Below, one piece after another: positions 8,374 to 34,192 of a DNA stretch of 64,000 bases. The notes below the pieces were generated by a model. The model saw only the letters and a list, made by a program, of their open reading frames with translations. It was not told the DNA's origin and searched no databases. Each line of letters begins with the position of its first letter. Position 1 is the stretch's first letter. Source of the stretch: Terriglobia bacterium. GTDB lineage: Bacteria; Acidobacteriota; Terriglobia; Acidiferrales; UBA7541. The stretch spans positions 1 to 64,000 of the forward strand of contig JAIQEV010000001.1 in assembly GCA_020073585.1 (NCBI GenBank), read 5' to 3'. Position numbers and translations under genes: made by a program.

Positions 8374-9537
8374 TCAGAACTCCTCTTCGTCGTCGTGCTT
8401 GAGCGCGGTGCTCTTCGCCGCCAGCTTCACGCCGTGCGCGCGCACCCCGGAAAGGATGGCCCGGCGCGTCTCCGCCGGCAGCGTCTCCGGAGCGAATACG
8501 CCCGCCAGCTCGCGCGGAAAATACTTCACGAACAGCGAAGCCATGTGCGCCGTGATGTACGCCACCGGCGTGGTGAACATCCCGCGCTGCCGGATCTGGA
8601 AGAGCGTGGGGAACGCGCAATCCGTGCGCAGCAGCACCGGCTTTTCCTTCTTCTCCCCGCGCACCAGCACGCTGGCCGCGAAGCGCGCGTTCTGCAGCAC
8701 CCCCTTGCGGATCAGCCGCGCCACCATCCGCGGCGTGGGCGTGTGCGGAAAGCGGTGCCGCACCATCCCCCGCGATTTCGATAATTTGCCCTGCTTGTGC
8801 CAGCGCCGCAGCCGGTCGATCTCGTTCCCGCCGATCTTTACGTCCAGCTCGCGCATGGCGATGAAATGCGGCAGCGTCGCGACTTCGTCCTGCGCCGCCA
8901 GCACCACCCGCACGGCGCCGATCGGCTCCGGGAATCGGAACTTTTCGAGCTCCGAAAAACGCTTGCCCAGCAGAAATTTTCCGTCCCGGTAGATGCGCGG
9001 ATGCGAAACCGCCTCGTCGAAGGAAACTTCCGGCGACCACTGCGAGATCGGATCGTCGCTCTCCGTGCTCTCATACAGCCGGATGTGCACGGCGTCCACG
9101 CGGTCCACCAGGTCCGCCGCGCGGCGCACCAGCAGATTCGTCAGCCCCGGCGCGGCCCCGGCGTTGATGAGTGCCGCGCGGTTTTTCTTCTCGAAGCGCT
9201 TCGCGTAGCGCATCTGCTCCGCCCGGAACGGGTGCCGCGTGAGGTGCGAGCTGAGGTCCAGGTAGTGCGCGCGCAGGCGCAGCGCCGCGCGCAGCACGAT
9301 CTCGTTGAACAGGGAAGCCGAGGCGTTGATGATCAACTGGCAGCCGCGCCCCGCGCGCACCACCCCGCGCAGGTTCCGCGCATTCACCGCCACCACCGCG
9401 ATGCGGCTCTTCTTGCCCAGAAAGCGCCGCGCACGCTCAGGGTCGCGATCGCCGCACCAGACGGTATGCCCCTGTCGCTCGAGCAGCTGTGCCAGAAGAG
9501 AGCCGGTGGCTCCCGCTCCCAGGACGAAGATGCGCAT
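8374..9537 (-). CDS. Saccharopine dehydrogenase-like NAD(P)-binding protein
   Basis: A 387-residue protein starting MRIFVLGAGATGSLLAQLLERQG, a Rossmann GxGxxG nucleotide-binding motif typical of the Sacchrp_dh_NADP family (PF03435). LIINASASLFN, HYLDLSSH and NAGAAPGLTNLL follow in family order. A longer open frame begins 27 codons upstream, but the Rossmann strand normally begins within a few residues of the start, so the internal ATG at 9537 was chosen; no good ribosome binding sequence supports either. Members act on amino-acid conjugates, but the substrate here is unknown. It is divergent from moaA. Confidence 0.8.
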   Translation of the reverse strand: MRIFVLGAGATGSLLAQLLERQGHTVWCGDRDPERARRFLGKKSRIAVVAVNARNLRGVVRAGRGCQLIINASASLFNEIVLRAALRLRAHYLDLSSHLTRHPFRAEQMRYAKRFEKKNRAALINAGAAPGLTNLLVRRAADLVDRVDAVHIRLYESTESDDPISQWSPEVSFDEAVSHPRIYRDGKFLLGKRFSELEKFRFPEPIGAVRVVLAAQDEVATLPHFIAMRELDVKIGGNEIDRLRRWHKQGKLSKSRGMVRHRFPHTPTPRMVARLIRKGVLQNARFAASVLVRGEKKEKPVLLRTDCAFPTLFQIRQRGMFTTPVAYITAHMASLFVKYFPRELAGVFAPETLPAETRRAILSGVRAHGVKLAAKSTALKHDDEEEF

Positions 9538-9612
9538 CTGGCAGGAAACTCTACCACATACCCGCGCAATCAGCGGGGATTCGGCGCTGTCGTTGCCGTA
9601 CAGCCCGGCACA

Positions 9613-9641
9613 TTGCACTGGGACGGGTCCGGGCGTAGAAT
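9613..9641 (+). promoter_or_regulatory. Predicted sigma-70 promoter for moaA
   Basis: TTGCAC (9613-9618), a 17-base spacer and TAGAAT (9636-9641). Transcription would start near 9648, giving moaA a leader of about 320 bases. The genes to the left read away from this point, so rightward transcription here can only serve moaA. Confidence 0.6.
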
Positions 9642-16367: not shown

Positions 16368-17726
16368 GTGAACTGGAGCTGGGTGCTGCTGCGTGGCGCG
16401 GTGGGCGTGAGTTTGCTCACGCTGCTTTTTTTGTCGCAGCGTTTCTGGTACCGCGCGATCTGGCGGGTGACCTCCAATCTGCTCAGTCTCTGGCTGCGCA
16501 TCGCGCTCCGCCTGGTCTATCTCGCCGCGCTTCTTTTCGTGATTCTCTCCGCTGCCGACGGTATCCGCATGGGCCACCACCATCTGATGCCGCGCGGAAC
16601 GCTGGTTACGGCCCTGGCCGGACTGTGGTTTTTTAGCGCGCTGTTCGCCTATCTCGCGGTCAAGGGCATCCATGGGCTGGATCGCGTGTGGATCTGGCTG
16701 CGCCGCCATTCGCCGCGCTCCGGCTCCGGCAAGCGCCGGGCTGTGGCGGGGAAAGCCGCGGTCCCGCCCGCCGAGATGCTCGCCAGTCCCGGGCGGCGCT
16801 ACTTTTTCCAGACGGCCACGGCGCTGGCCGGCGCGGGCCCGTTTCTCGGCGCCGTGTACGGTTTTGCCGCGGAGCGCTTGAAGTATCAGGTGCGCCGCGT
16901 CGAAGTGCCGATGGCCAATCTGCCGCCCGCGCTGGACGGCCTGAAGATCGCGCAGCTCAGCGACATTCACCTGAGCGGGTATATGACGCGCGAACAGGTG
17001 CGCCGCGCCGTGGACATGTCCAACGAGCAGGCCGCGGACCTGGCGGTGGTCACCGGCGATTTCATCACCGGAGCGAGCGATCCCGTGGCCGAATGCGTCG
17101 AGGAGCTGCGCCATCTGCGCGCGCCGCTGGGCGCCTGGGGCTGCAACGGCAATCACGAAATTTATGCGAAGGCCGAGGATGCGGCGCAACGCCTCTTCGC
17201 GCAGGCGGGGATGAAGCTGCTGCGGCAGGAGCGCGCGCAACTTTCCTGGCGCGGCGCGCAGCTCAACCTGATCGGCGTGGATTACCAGCGCGAACGCACG
17301 CCCGGCGGGCGGCGCTTGCCCATGCTGGCGCATGCCGAGCCGCTGGTGCGCCGCGACATGCCCAATATCCTGCTCTCGCACAATCCCAACGCGTTCAACC
17401 ACGCCGCGGAACTGGGCATCGAGCTGACGCTCTCCGGGCATACCCACGGCGGGCAGGTGCAGGTGGAAATCCTGGACCACCGCTTCAGCCCCGCGCGTTT
17501 CATCACCGACTACATCGCCGGTCTCTACCAGCGCCCGTTCTTCGCTCCCGCGGGCAACGGCCGCGCCGCGGCGCCCTTGCTGGCCGCCGCCTCCGAGATG
17601 CGCCTCACGGGTCGCAGTTCGCACGGCGCCGCACTGTACGTCAATCGCGGCCTGGGGACCGTCGGCGCTCCCGTGCGCCTCGGCGTACCCCCGGAGATCA
17701 CGCTCCTCGTTCTGCGGCGCGCCTAG
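16368..17726 (+). CDS. Membrane-anchored metallophosphoesterase
   Basis: A 452-residue protein. Four hydrophobic segments lie in residues 1-110, then a basic linker with a possible Tat-like RRYFFQTATALAGAG segment (about 145), then a calcineurin-like phosphoesterase (about 180-445). Metal-site motifs SDIH, TGDF, GNHE and SGHTHGGQ are all present. The layout matches YkuE/YaeI-type phosphodiesterases that act on membrane lipids outside the cytoplasm. Start is a GTG with a GGAGAC sequence upstream. A hairpin terminator follows. Confidence 0.9.
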   Translation: MNWSWVLLRGAVGVSLLTLLFLSQRFWYRAIWRVTSNLLSLWLRIALRLVYLAALLFVILSAADGIRMGHHHLMPRGTLVTALAGLWFFSALFAYLAVKGIHGLDRVWIWLRRHSPRSGSGKRRAVAGKAAVPPAEMLASPGRRYFFQTATALAGAGPFLGAVYGFAAERLKYQVRRVEVPMANLPPALDGLKIAQLSDIHLSGYMTREQVRRAVDMSNEQAADLAVVTGDFITGASDPVAECVEELRHLRAPLGAWGCNGNHEIYAKAEDAAQRLFAQAGMKLLRQERAQLSWRGAQLNLIGVDYQRERTPGGRRLPMLAHAEPLVRRDMPNILLSHNPNAFNHAAELGIELTLSGHTHGGQVQVEILDHRFSPARFITDYIAGLYQRPFFAPAGNGRAAAPLLAAASEMRLTGRSSHGAALYVNRGLGTVGAPVRLGVPPEITLLVLRRA

Positions 17727-17739
17727 CCAGTTCATTTTT

Positions 17740-17762
17740 AGCGGGCTGCGGCCCGCTCTTGT
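17740..17762 (+). terminator. Hairpin terminator after the phosphoesterase gene
   Basis: AGCGGGC/GCCCGCT seven-base-pair stem with TGCG loop and a CTTGTCT tail; a run of T also lies just before it, so it could act bidirectionally. Confidence 0.55.
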
Positions 17763-17798
17763 CTGCGCGGTAGAGCGGCCTGGCGAGGAGAAAATCCG

Positions 17799-18530
17799 AT
17801 GAAACCTCTGCGTTCCTGTCTGCTGCTGTTCACCCTGTCGGGGCTGCTTGGCGCGGCTCCTGCCGGGGCGCAGATTCAACTCGGCGAGGCCGCGCGGCAG
17901 CTCGGGCTGGGGAAATCCGCGGGGCCGGCGGAGGACAAGGTGGCCGCCGGACTGAAAGAGGCGCTGCGGGTGGGCGCGGACAACGCCGTGAAATACACGG
18001 GGCGCAAGGACGGGTATTTCGCGAACGCGGCGATCAAGATCCTGATGCCCAAGAATCTGCGGCCCATCGAAAAGGGGCTGCGCGCGGTGGGCTACGGTCC
18101 CAAGGTGGACGAATTCATCCTGAGCATGAACCGCGCGGCGGAGCAGGCCGCGCCCGAGGCCCGGCTCATTTTTCGCGACGCCATCCTGGCGATGACCTTC
18201 GAGGACGCGCGGAAGATTCTGCAGGGCAGCGACACCGCGGCCACGGAATATTTCCAGGCGCATACCAGCAGCCGGCTCAGCGCGGCCTTCCGGCCGATCG
18301 TGGAGCAAGCGATGCGCGAACACGGGGTCACGCGGCAGTATGAGGCGCTCATCGGACAGTATGAATCGCTGCCGTTCATGAAGGGCCCGACGTTCGACAT
18401 CAACGAATACGTGGTGAGCCAGGCGCTGAACGGGCTTTTCCACATGCTCGGGGAAGAAGAAAAGAAAATCCGCAAGAACCCCGCCGCGCGAGTCACCAGC
18501 CTGCTCAAGGAAGTCTTCGGCAAGCGCTGA
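17799..18530 (+). CDS. DUF4197 secreted protein
   Basis: A 243-residue protein with a signal peptide (1-25, ending AGAQ) and the helical DUF4197 fold: [78 protein letters not shown]. The family (PF13852) is conserved in Gram-negatives and presumed periplasmic, with no known function. A GAGGAG ribosome binding site lies before the ATG. It is the last gene before the large non-coding gap. Confidence 0.9.
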
Positions 18531-18539
18531 GCAGCGCTC

Positions 18540-18960
18540 CGGGCGATTCATGGAAGCTGTGGAAAAGTGTGGATATCTGGTACATCCCTCCCCCCGGTGT
18601 TTTTTGTAAGAGTGGCAAATACAGGACTTACAGGAAGGGGTTGTCTAAGAGTGGCAAATGCTAGACTTAAAGATGCGTGTTTGCATATAGATGCGCAGGA
18701 GTGCGTAAGAGTGTGAAAAGAAGGGAAGTAAAGATGTAAGGAAGCAACGAGGCAGTGAGGGTCGAGGGGACGCGGTGGAGCAGGGCGCGGGGTTGCGAGG
18801 AGTTTTCGAACGGTGATTGACGATAACACAGAAAAGGATAGCAGAAGCGTAAAGGTAATGCAATAGATTACTGAATAGTTTTCGAACGGGCTGTGGAAAA
18901 TGGCGCAAGAACTCGACCCTGTGGAATGCAATGAGGGGGCGGGCGTTCGAGGCCGAGGGG
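18540..18960. other. Candidate chromosomal replication origin (oriC-like region)
   Basis: A 420-base non-coding stretch, visibly richer in A and T than its surroundings, between the DUF4197 gene and thiC. It carries DnaA-box-like sites: TGTGGAAAA (18558-18566 and 18892-18900, complement TTTTCCACA, which fits TTWTNCACA), TGTGGATAT (18568-18576) and TGTGGAATG (18920-18928). Between them are three TAAGAGTG repeats, two copies of AGTTTTCGAACGG (18801-18813 and 18877-18889) and an AT-rich stretch at 18815-18880. Plus-strand G/C bias changes sign across this point. No dnaA or dnaN is nearby, so this remains a candidate. Confidence 0.5.
18607..18713 (+). repeat. TAAGAGTG direct repeats
   Basis: TAAGAGTGGCAAAT occurs at 18607-18620 and 18646-18659, and TAAGAGTG again at 18706-18713. 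The first copy is bounded by GTAAG and CTTAC, an inverted pair enclosing 16 bases. They look like iterons or a protein-binding array. Confidence 0.8.
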
Positions 18961-20630
<1,670 letters not shown>

Positions 20631-21503: not shown

Positions 21504-22595
21504 CTAAGATTTTTCCTCGCGGGATTTCCAATCTTCCCAATCCGTAAGCGTCGCGTCGAACATGGCGTCGCTGGCTTTGTGCAGCCATTTGGCGGGGCGT
21601 TTGTGGAGGTCGCGCAGGACGGCTTTGCGGGCTTTGGGCGTGCCAAGGTGGACGTTGGCGGTTTCGCGGCCCATCTCGCGGAGCAGGCGGTATTCGTCGC
21701 GTTTTTTGGGGAGCTGGCTGAGCTCGATGCGCGAGCAGTCCGGGGCCAGGCGGCGGACGATCCAGCGGCCGCGGAGATGGACGAAGGGATCGGGAGAACG
21801 GACGGCGCGGCGGAGGATCTCCTCGTAATGGATTTTTTCCGAGGCTTTGCCGCCGCGGGCCCAGGCGCATGCGGAAGGGGCCAGGGCCTTGGCTTCGCGG
21901 GCGATCTTTGCGCCGCGCCAGTCGGCGAGGGCCACGAAGCGCTGGCGGCCGAGGCTGCCGAGACCCGCGACGCGGTGCACGATGCGGTAGTCGAGACCGT
22001 CGTGTTCCGGGAAAAGAGATTGCAGGGCTTTGCCGGCGCTCTTGGGGAGTTTGCCTTGGTAGGTGGGGAGAGCGGTGAGTTTCTTCCAGTAGGCCACGGG
22101 GTCGCGCGGGTCGCCGAGGGTCAGTTCGCGGAGCCAGTGATGGTGCTCGCCGAGAACGATGGGAGCGCCGCCATCGGTGATGGCGCTGCGGTAGCCGTCG
22201 AGGAGGGCGTCGCAGGCGTCCTTGCGGGGGAGGGCGAAGTGGTTCTCGGAGGCGGCGAGGAGGGCGCTGGTGGCCAGGCGGACGAGGTCGAGGGTGTAGG
22301 GGAGCGGGTAAGCCTCGTCGAAATCGTTGACGCCCCAGTTGAGGCGGCCTTCGAGGTCGCGCCAGGTGCCGAAATTCTCGACGTGCAGGTCGCCGACGGC
22401 GAGGAGTTCGGGGGCGTTGCGCAGGCCGGGGCAGAGCTCGGGCCAGAGCTGCATCCAGCGGTAGAAGGTGGCGCGAAAAAAGGGGAAGGCGCTGGCGGCC
22501 ATGCGCTGGTGCTTGAGGGCCAGATCGTCCGCGAGGAGGGTCAGGCGCTTGGCGAGCCAGGCCTCGTACTTCTTGGTGGCTTTGCTGATTTTCAT
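21504..22595 (-). CDS. DUF2252 family protein
   Basis: A 363-residue protein matching DUF2252 (PF10009), a family with a protein-kinase-like fold. Conserved pieces are FFRATFYRWM, AVGDLHVENFGTWRD, NDFDEAYPLPYTLDLVRLATS and the later VHRVAGLGSLGRQRFVAL. The GDLHxxNFG and DFDE motifs correspond to catalytic-loop-like and metal-binding positions of aminoglycoside kinase-type folds; the real substrate is unknown. It is divergent from the receiver-GGDEF gene. The plus strand remains G-rich through this minus-strand gene. Confidence 0.88.
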   Translation of the reverse strand: MKISKATKKYEAWLAKRLTLLADDLALKHQRMAASAFPFFRATFYRWMQLWPELCPGLRNAPELLAVGDLHVENFGTWRDLEGRLNWGVNDFDEAYPLPYTLDLVRLATSALLAASENHFALPRKDACDALLDGYRSAITDGGAPIVLGEHHHWLRELTLGDPRDPVAYWKKLTALPTYQGKLPKSAGKALQSLFPEHDGLDYRIVHRVAGLGSLGRQRFVALADWRGAKIAREAKALAPSACAWARGGKASEKIHYEEILRRAVRSPDPFVHLRGRWIVRRLAPDCSRIELSQLPKKRDEYRLLREMGRETANVHLGTPKARKAVLRDLHKRPAKWLHKASDAMFDATLTDWEDWKSREEKS

Positions 22596-33292: not shown

Positions 33293-34192
33293 ATGTCCCA
33301 GCTCAACGCAACGCGCGGCGAGTTGCAGGAGATTATCTCTCAACTGCAACAGGCCATCTACAACCACCAGCAATGGCATGACGCGCTGGTCCGCACGCTC
33401 GTATGCCGGCTGCCGGGTGACCGGCACGACATGAGCCCGAAAGCGCACCGGGAGTGCCGATTCGGCCAGTGGTATTACACCCAGGCCTCCGAAAAGCTGC
33501 AGCGCCATTCCGGGTTCGTCGCCATCGGCGAGGCGCATCTGAGCATGCATCAATTGGCTGCGCGCCTGCTCGTCGCCGCCAGCTCCGAAACTCCTCTTCC
33601 TGCGCATGATTATGACAGCTTTGCCAATGCGCTCGAACGGATGAGGCTGGAGATATTTGCCCTGGAACGTGAAGTAGAGAGCTCCCTGTACAATCGTGAT
33701 GCGCTTACCGGGGCTCTCAACCGGGTCGGCGTGCTGGAGACGCTGCGCGAGCAGCAGGAGATGGTCAAACGCCAAGTTCAAACTTGCTGCATTGCCATGA
33801 TGGATTTGGACAACTTCAAGAACGTCAACGACCTCTACGGACATCGCATCGGAGATCAGGTGTTGACTGTCGCCACCCGCTACGTCATGGAACATCTGCG
33901 GCCTTACGACAAAGTATTCCGCTATGGCGGGGAGGAGTTTGTGCTCTGCTTGCAGCACATAGAACTGACGCCCGCGTATGACATCGTGGAGCGCGTGCGC
34001 AAAGGACTCGCCGCAACGCCCATCGATATCGGCCTCAAAGAACCCATCCACTTTACAGCATCTTTTGGCGTGGTCTTGCTTGACCCGGAACTCCCCGTCG
34101 AACAGTCCATCGACCGTGCCGACAAGGCGATGTATGCGGCGAAATGCACCGGGCGGAATTGTGTGCGGATGTGGAGTTCGGACCTGAGTTGA
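33293..34192 (+). CDS. dgcZ: DgcZ-type diguanylate cyclase with zinc-binding CZB domain
   Basis: A 299-residue protein, close to the 296 of E. coli DgcZ (YdeH). The N-terminal helical CZB domain (about 5-125) has HQQWHDALV, CRFGQWYY and GEAHLSMHQLA, giving the 3His/1Cys zinc site. The GGDEF domain (about 130-295) has DALTGALNR, DLDNFKNVND and an intact GGEEF. In DgcZ, zinc holds the protein inactive, so this enzyme may link zinc to c-di-GMP. It is a single gene with its own promoter. Confidence 0.9.
   Translation: MSQLNATRGELQEIISQLQQAIYNHQQWHDALVRTLVCRLPGDRHDMSPKAHRECRFGQWYYTQASEKLQRHSGFVAIGEAHLSMHQLAARLLVAASSETPLPAHDYDSFANALERMRLEIFALEREVESSLYNRDALTGALNRVGVLETLREQQEMVKRQVQTCCIAMMDLDNFKNVNDLYGHRIGDQVLTVATRYVMEHLRPYDKVFRYGGEEFVLCLQHIELTPAYDIVERVRKGLAATPIDIGLKEPIHFTASFGVVLLDPELPVEQSIDRADKAMYAAKCTGRNCVRMWSSDLS

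Follow-up and report, generated by a model that had tools for sequence, protein, structure and literature searches.

The intergenic gap between a DUF4197 gene and thiC in the window, the 64,000-nucleotide stretch of Terriglobia bacterium DNA analyzed here, is a real, origin-like site but one among about fifty. It holds one copy of an intergenic element of about 350 bp, and a sequence model of this element, R1, has at least 49 matches in the window's own genome (G000; 4.03 Mb in 113 contigs). Many of the copies sit at origin-like flips of strand bias, and replication of the chromosome may therefore begin at many places and not at one. That the elements act as recurrent start sites of chromosomal replication is the explanation we favour from the sequence, and in our estimate it is about as likely as not. 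That these starts would also be primed by transcription, an idea that draws on analogy with known systems, is a good deal less probable.

The window site

An earlier note had proposed a candidate oriC here, marked by a strand-bias switch that is independent of gene direction. Its base counts were exact on recount (25 C and 20 G at 8461-8520; 23 G and 15 C at 21661-21720), and both counted stretches fall inside genes of the minus strand (8374-9618 and 21504-22595), both of which have a match in Pfam. The GC skew of the plus strand passes from negative to positive at around 17.7-18.6 kb regardless of gene direction, with genes of both directions present on both sides. In 2-kb windows the skew is negative over 1-15 kb, with values of −0.05 to −0.21, is approximately zero at 15-18 kb and reaches +0.20 to +0.25 at 19-25 kb. 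The cumulative skew minimum is at position 17728, about 0.8 kb to the left of the gap (18540-18960) and about 0.86 kb past the G-tract described below, along the predicted direction of transcription. The switch resembles neither a gene-direction effect nor the local inversion that the earlier note had named as fatal to its reading. The note's other refuting outcome, a genome-wide skew minimum lying elsewhere, is inapplicable as worded because the genome has many such minima.

The remaining sequence features claimed for the gap were also confirmed. The gap is AT-richer than its surroundings, with a GC content of 0.51 as against 0.64-0.65 in the flanking genes, and contains direct repeats of 32 and 14 nt as well as two exact DnaA boxes near its ends. 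Three exact matches to TTWTNCACA occur in the window, all at 18436-18900, the third being within the DUF4197 gene; chance alone would give a mean of 0.75 matches per window, and three or more matches were found in 2 of 100 shuffles. The gap is the densest DnaA-box cluster among the 2.4 Mb scanned. As had been stated, dnaA is not nearby, the sole PF00308 match in G000 being on contig C38.

The R1 match of the window copy (222 bits; 18579-18906) is on the plus strand, and the predicted promoter fires leftward on the minus strand, away from thiC (19197-20630, plus strand), which flanks the upstream side of the element. Following this predicted direction, a DnaA-box-type TTTTCCACA at 18892-18900 (minus strand) lies 37 nt upstream of the start of the −35 box, a spacing that is kept in one subfamily, and is followed by a TTCGAA palindrome at 18881-18886. 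The promoter pattern predicts a −35 box, TTGCAT, at 18858-18863 and, after a 17-nt spacer, a −10 box, TATCCT, at 18835-18840 (both minus strand), with TGC just upstream of the latter as in the extended −10 type. The promoter score of this copy, 8.5, is among the weaker promoter matches in the family. The predicted transcript would be pyrimidine-rich and run from the −10 box to the G-tract (18593-18834, minus strand; both ends putative). A second TTCGAA palindrome (18805-18810) is just inside it. Further on are two iteron-like direct repeats on the plus strand (18602-18633 and 18641-18672, spanning 18602-18672), with a shorter third copy at 18705-18718. The G-tract GGGGGGAGGG (18586-18595, minus strand) forms the end of the predicted transcript, and G-tracts at this place are kept across subfamilies. 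Beyond it, pattern matching gave a second exact TTTTCCACA at 18558-18566 (minus strand) and a third at 18436-18444 (plus strand) within the DUF4197 gene (17799-18530, plus strand), which borders the element downstream. No covariance model of Rfam 15 matched at E ≤1 in 17700-19250, a search confined to the window copy.

A dispersed family of elements

A BLAST search of 18540-18960 against G000 returned 19 matches including the query copy, the other 18 having 68-93% identity to it. R1, a sequence-only model, was built on ten copies picked by similarity and gave the 49 matches in G000 at E values up to 0.01; since 150 of 1352 first-look candidates were scored, 49 may be low. Merging two adjacent matches on contig C30 leaves 48 copies. 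A second species (G009; 3.7 Mb in 10 contigs) has 40 R1 matches. The repetition of the element (49 matches in G000, 40 in G009) leads us to reject a single oriC at the window gap as originally stated: the site is origin-like, but it is not "the" oriC.

Across 41 genomes, at E ≤0.001 and with stricter filters, R1 found a match in 20 of the 25 members of the genus and in none of the 16 genomes outside it. Five genus members gave nothing and some others gave few, weak matches. R1 also found no match when run on 17 of 61 DUF4197 loci from many phyla. By these searches the element is so far known from one genus only. A promoter-plus-palindrome pattern, which is too strict for other species, gave 12 hits in G000, 12 in G009 and 0-3 in each of the other 39 genomes, while the backward control gave one hit, in G018. 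A second model, built on all copies, adds a G009 copy at 1,209.7 kb and gives 78 bits to a weak copy at 33.4 kb (position 33,433), which scores 21 bits with R1. The weak copy is included in the 61-copy anatomy set and the TTTTCCACA counts but was left out of the 15- or 16-copy jump, flank and gene tests and of the 63-copy averages and counts; it would have added one more copy next to an up-jump, the one at 31.0 kb.

Copy positions are common to the two species. For at least 11 of 15 G009 copies the downstream flank matches that of a G000 copy, and for 6 of them the upstream side matches too. A comparison of 4-kb flanks, covering all 32 upstream pairs and the best 40 of 50 downstream pairs, found no gene or other feature common to the copies, the pairs being mostly inter-species pairs or short matches. 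In particular, no iteron-type rep gene adjoining the copies was common to these flanks, again for the best 40 of 50 downstream pairs.

The family layout comprises an upstream TTCGAA, a σ70-like promoter, a repeat-bearing stretch that is mostly about 200-290 nt long and a terminal G-tract, and it is kept across subfamilies with differing hexamers and spacers. The anatomy counts that follow are not independent because the copies are related. When the strand opposite R1 is read, 46 of 61 copies reach a promoter score (−35 box, spacer and −10 box) of 10.5 or higher in the sense direction, against none in antisense and 3.1% of shuffles. The corresponding values at a score of at least 9.5 were 57/61, 6/61 and 12.1%, and the spacer is 17 nt in 54 of those 57 copies. 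TTCGAA occurs within 60 nt upstream of the −35 box in 47 of 61 copies. A G-tract is present downstream in 52/61 copies in sense, compared with 18/61 in antisense and 7.1% of background windows. The 3′ end (CTCTT.., AAAAACAC and the G-tract) is among the best-conserved parts of the element. An exact TTTTCCACA is present in 11 of the 48 copies in G000, mostly in one subfamily that has it at a constant position, and in 3 of 13 G009 copies; what the family conserves is not the DnaA box. Tandem repeats of the GTGACTCGTGACT type occur in short runs on the G-tract side of copies on G000 contigs C86, C97, C29, C87 and C32.

A conserved RNA fold found no support in the single alignment that was folded, whose 19 sequences gave 15 pairs, 2 of them with a two-sided change, and a covariation term of 0.15 kcal/mol. 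The next gene downstream is in sense orientation in 39 and antisense in 24 of 63 cases; the element is therefore not simply the leader of a gene. Its predicted RNA is pyrimidine-rich and thus poor for R-loops save at the G-tract, and this composition of the RNA body argues against a long RNA:DNA hybrid.

The mean GC content of the 2.8 kb upstream of the promoter is 0.57-0.61 compared with 0.65-0.66 downstream, and is normal upstream in several copies. GC-poor islands encoding restriction- or defence-type domains are found about 3 kb upstream of many copies, for example on G000 contigs C64, C112, C70, C109, C21 and C24 and at 28.9 and 1149 kb on G009 contig C2. The domains are MTES_1575 nuclease, Z1, type III Res, UvrD with PD-(D/E)XK, KAP NTPase, DNA methylases and HNH. 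There were 27 GC-poor flanks with a long reading frame; among 20 of their proteins, 10 that looked defence-like were scanned, a biased choice, and 9 had a Pfam hit. The copies may mark hot spots for such islands.

Strand-bias jumps at the copies

A positive skew jump (5-kb flanks) was found at 37 of 42 testable G000 copies, with a mean of 0.110, the other 6 of the 48 having no testable flank. The null mean was 0.049 and is biased toward jumps, because the null was taken from stretches centred on copies. The sign changes from minus to plus at 19 of the 42, and there is no positive jump at five (on contigs C18, C28, C30 and C64, and at C1:107797). Within 2.5 kb of a copy the mean jump was 0.103 (n = 667), compared with −0.016 at 8 kb or more (n = 616), and jumps above 0.15 made up 30.6% of the near and 0% of the far points; the points come from overlapping windows. 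Repeat orientation does not create the jump, since a minus-to-plus change is unchanged by reverse complementation. The switch is usually displaced a little downstream of the promoter. Among 24 G000 copies tested, 20 gave clear switches, of which 18 were downstream of the promoter, 1 upstream and 1 within 200 bp of it; in G009, 10 were downstream and 1 upstream. The oriented mean over 63 copies is −0.12 upstream, crosses zero some 2 kb downstream and climbs to +0.07. The skew zero is thus about 1-2 kb downstream of the promoter, outside the element.

The skew analysis of G009 covers 1.4 Mb, made up of about 1.2 Mb of contig C2 and 0.2 Mb of C1; positions 677,513 and 744,908, each with a copy, fall outside it. 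Over the 1.4 Mb the skew is a sawtooth of sharp up-jumps, each followed by a gradual fall across tens of kilobases. Up-jumps of at least 0.10 (12-kb flanks) number 14, and each of the nine largest has a copy no more than 3.4 kb away. An up-jump is found within 4 kb of ten of the 16 copies, whereas 1.37 would be expected at random and the maximum in 20000 placements was 7. A separate rotation test, in which the weak copy at 33.4 kb was included, gave p = 0.002-0.003, at its resolution limit. None of the 16 copies is near any of the 10 down-jumps. The jump distribution is asymmetric (skewness 0.96), with 2.5% of values above 0.2 and none below −0.2. A jump of at least 0.12 was found within 6 kb of 11 of 15 G009 copies, whereas the share was 11.5% among 980 overlapping windows lying 12 kb or more from copies, in a test that extended to only 2 G000 copies. 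Six of the 16 copies are more than 4 kb from any up-jump (at 978, 1035, 1149, 1210 and 1339 kb on C2 and at 210 kb on C1), and those at 978, 1035 and 1339 kb have no up-jump with 10-kb flanks either. Conversely, up-jumps at around 125, 293.5 and 902 kb on C2 have no copy within 40 kb, even by the second model.

The skew at third codon positions separates the side of the copy from the strand of the gene. In a test of 688 G000 genes identified with a simple codon-usage gene caller, the plus-strand skew of genes 3-6 kb to the left and right of copies was −0.288 and +0.055 for plus-strand genes and −0.013 and +0.298 for minus-strand genes. The side difference is 0.31-0.34, alike for both gene strands, and gene strand has an effect of its own. 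The values in G009, for genes 3-10 kb away, were −0.29 and +0.08 (plus-strand genes) and −0.12 and +0.25 (minus-strand genes), and there the difference can still be seen at 30-50 kb but has disappeared at 50-80 kb. Closer than 3 kb the side effect is weak in G000 (+0.12 and −0.02) and in G009 too. Because the side difference is alike for genes of either strand in both species, gene direction is rejected as the cause of the skew. Gene pairs flanking the copies are likewise mixed (++ 14, +− 12, −− 11, −+ 7). Co-orientation with the supposed forks is 50.3% among 618 genes within 30 kb of copies, and this counts against origins because conflict avoidance would predict more.

In ten outgroup stretches (from G033 and G031) the maximum jump with 5-kb flanks was 0.093, and the mean absolute 4-kb skew was 0.038 compared with 0.086 in G009. 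Single jumps of the size seen here are not unusual, because named loci of other bacteria (at least 18 kb long) span the same spread: the standard deviation is 0.065 in both those loci and G009, and the extremes are +0.280 and −0.210 in other bacteria and +0.296 and −0.239 in G009. What is unusual is the tie of the jumps to one repeated element and the longer-range sawtooth.

Origin use, alternatives, and known systems

In G009 the only PF00308 match lies on C1, and the copy closest to it is about 17 kb away. A cluster of DnaA boxes adjoins dnaA in the same context in both species (G000 C38:15031-15753, locus L015; G009 C1:138205-138925), with 4 boxes at no more than one mismatch, 2 of them exact, within 600 bp, and for this reason an ordinary oriC may exist at dnaA. 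There is no skew switch at dnaA in G009 (−0.107, −0.036, −0.026 and −0.102 across 130-150 kb) or on the G000 dnaA contig, which is positive in every 4-kb bin. Outside the element family, two exact TTTTCCACA and one TTATCCACA are grouped in about 170 bp at G000 C49:67555-67725 (L010:7555-7725), and a weaker skew rise at around 72-76 kb is some kilobases from this group.

The box clusters at dnaA are what would be expected if a DnaA-dependent oriC there worked normally and the elements were secondary sites (stress-induced, R-loop- or oriK-like, or break-induced) that fire often enough to shape the skew. E. coli lacking RNase HI presumably initiates at R-loops. No skew switch accompanies dnaA in G009 or on G000 C38, and since the largest jumps in the G009 sequence analyzed are at elements, the secondary sites would have to dominate fork direction there. 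We regard this arrangement as unlikely. Somewhat less probable still is that the elements are promoters or att-like sites edging defence-gene islands, the real start sites being otherwise defined and 1-2 kb away. The GC-poor upstream averages, the restriction-type genes at several copies and the position of the skew zero, downstream of the promoter and not within the element, would suit such an arrangement; the ordinary genes on both sides of the window copy, the normal upstream GC of several others and the flank comparisons, with no other feature common to the copies, argue against it.

Three other explanations are each very improbable. An inverted assembly caused by repeats, with abnormal GC skew, is documented in a passage of PMC7111523, and repeat-mediated inversions or assembly errors on a single-origin chromosome could in principle give skew jumps at repeats. 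Inversions predict both polarities, whereas 37 of 42 jumps were positive and 0 of 16 copies were near down-jumps, and the declines between jumps are gradual. The copies are short and diverged (68-93% identity), and two separate assemblies share flanks at 11 or more copies, at 6 of them on both sides; this agreement on the junctions speaks against misassembly. Local inversion and misassembly are therefore rejected on the one-way polarity and the shared flanks. The strong promoter-like sequences might instead suggest that transcription or gene direction, for example long transcripts from the elements, causes the skew. This is contradicted by a side effect that is similar on both gene strands and still there at 30-50 kb, by a promoter that is one-way and yet a skew that is two-sided, and by the mixed flanking gene pairs. 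Skew alone cannot distinguish the signs without an outside polarity, and the elements could then be fork-arrest or termination sites with a C-rich leading strand and diffuse initiation between them, a reading with which the head-on S10 and rpoB loci of G009 (below) agree if the nearest copy served them; this reading would still call for many origins, bacterial leading strands are normally G-rich, and the closer loci, G009 16S and G000 rpoB, fit origins. Resection at double-strand breaks was rejected as a cause of the skew by reasoning from its sign only.

If the elements are origins, two forks would depart from each active copy. The outward top strand would consequently be of leading type and G-rich, through exposure of the lagging template at the departing forks, which is how skew in bacteria is customarily interpreted. 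Transcription from the promoter might open or prime the DNA by way of an RNA:DNA hybrid at the G-tract, much as ColE1 RNA II or the mitochondrial LSP-CSB II system does, and such priming would fit a skew zero on the downstream side of the promoter. This priming mechanism is a guess by analogy. The complete proposal, that chromosome replication in the genus starts at some 40-50 dispersed origins defined by their sequence, each transcription-primed via a hybrid at the G-tract, is tentative, and we think it the less probable outcome by some distance. Four highly expressed loci share a contig with a copy, and two of them fit the fork direction: the plus-strand 16S gene of G009 is in positive skew and the plus-strand rpoB of G000 is about 10 kb to the right of a copy, both as expected of origins. 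The S10 and rpoB loci of G009, both on the plus strand, are 48 and 59 kb to the left of the only or nearest copy on contigs that end there, and would be head-on if served by it. The 16S and S10 loci of G000 have no copy on their contigs. Loss of RNase H, looked for as a hint of R-loops, showed no pattern, a match being present in 37 of 41 genomes.

Like a canonical DnaA-dependent oriC, the window copy shows a skew minimum, direct repeats and a gap richer in AT than its surroundings, and three exact TTTTCCACA lie within or next to it. The family differs from such an origin in having about 50 copies, located away from dnaA, of which 37 of 48 in G000 are without an exact TTTTCCACA, and in having a promoter, TTCGAA and a G-tract as its common parts. 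The element resembles iteron plasmid origins (oriV) in its two or more direct repeats, its AT-rich stretch and, sometimes, a DnaA box, but the flank comparison gave no adjacent gene common to the copies. ColE1 RNA II provides a transcription-primed start of replication, and with such origins (ColE1 RNA II, mitochondrial LSP-CSB II, E. coli oriK) the element shares a promoter, a predicted short RNA and a G-tract on which an RNA:DNA hybrid could in principle form. It differs from them in being chromosomal and repeated about 50-fold, with a conserved RNA fold unsupported and priming putative. The replication-associated skew of human N-domains forms sawtooth jumps, and sharp rises with gradual declines are likewise seen here; the scale is tens of kilobases as opposed to about a megabase, and many jumps here are tied to a short repeated element. 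At CSB 2, nascent RNA and non-template DNA form a hybrid G-quadruplex that can terminate transcription and might also affect replication, according to PMC5027508. R-loop-driven initiation has been described for E. coli without RNase HI.

Several skew switches of origin polarity that are independent of gene direction, as expected of a multi-origin chromosome, are present here. In the sections consulted of PMC7198777, multiple origins are reported in cyanobacteria: Synechocystis 6803 and Nostoc 7120 likewise lack a V-shaped skew and are reported to replicate from many sites, but their skew is irregular and those sections describe no common cis-element, whereas here a sequence-defined family is found at sharp jumps. 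Natural use of several origins by one bacterial chromosome is contested. A review (PMC10331603) holds that use of a single origin per chromosome is strict in all bacteria. PMC4403523 finds no evidence of two functional origins but itself proposes candidates; PMC3269012 argues that certain skews point to more than one origin, while cautioning about other causes; and according to the SkewDB paper (PMC8941118), multiple origins, inversions or assembly problems might each account for odd peaks. The family appears to be new, as does its association with skew jumps: no report of such a dispersed origin-like element was found among the results listed by searches of open-access literature, which is weak evidence of novelty.

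Here a short conserved element is found at many skew jumps in two species, and each copy is a concrete site for measuring copy number, fork direction and transcription. If the proposal is true, this bacterium would have a eukaryote-like replication landscape built on a start mechanism like that of the mitochondrion or ColE1.
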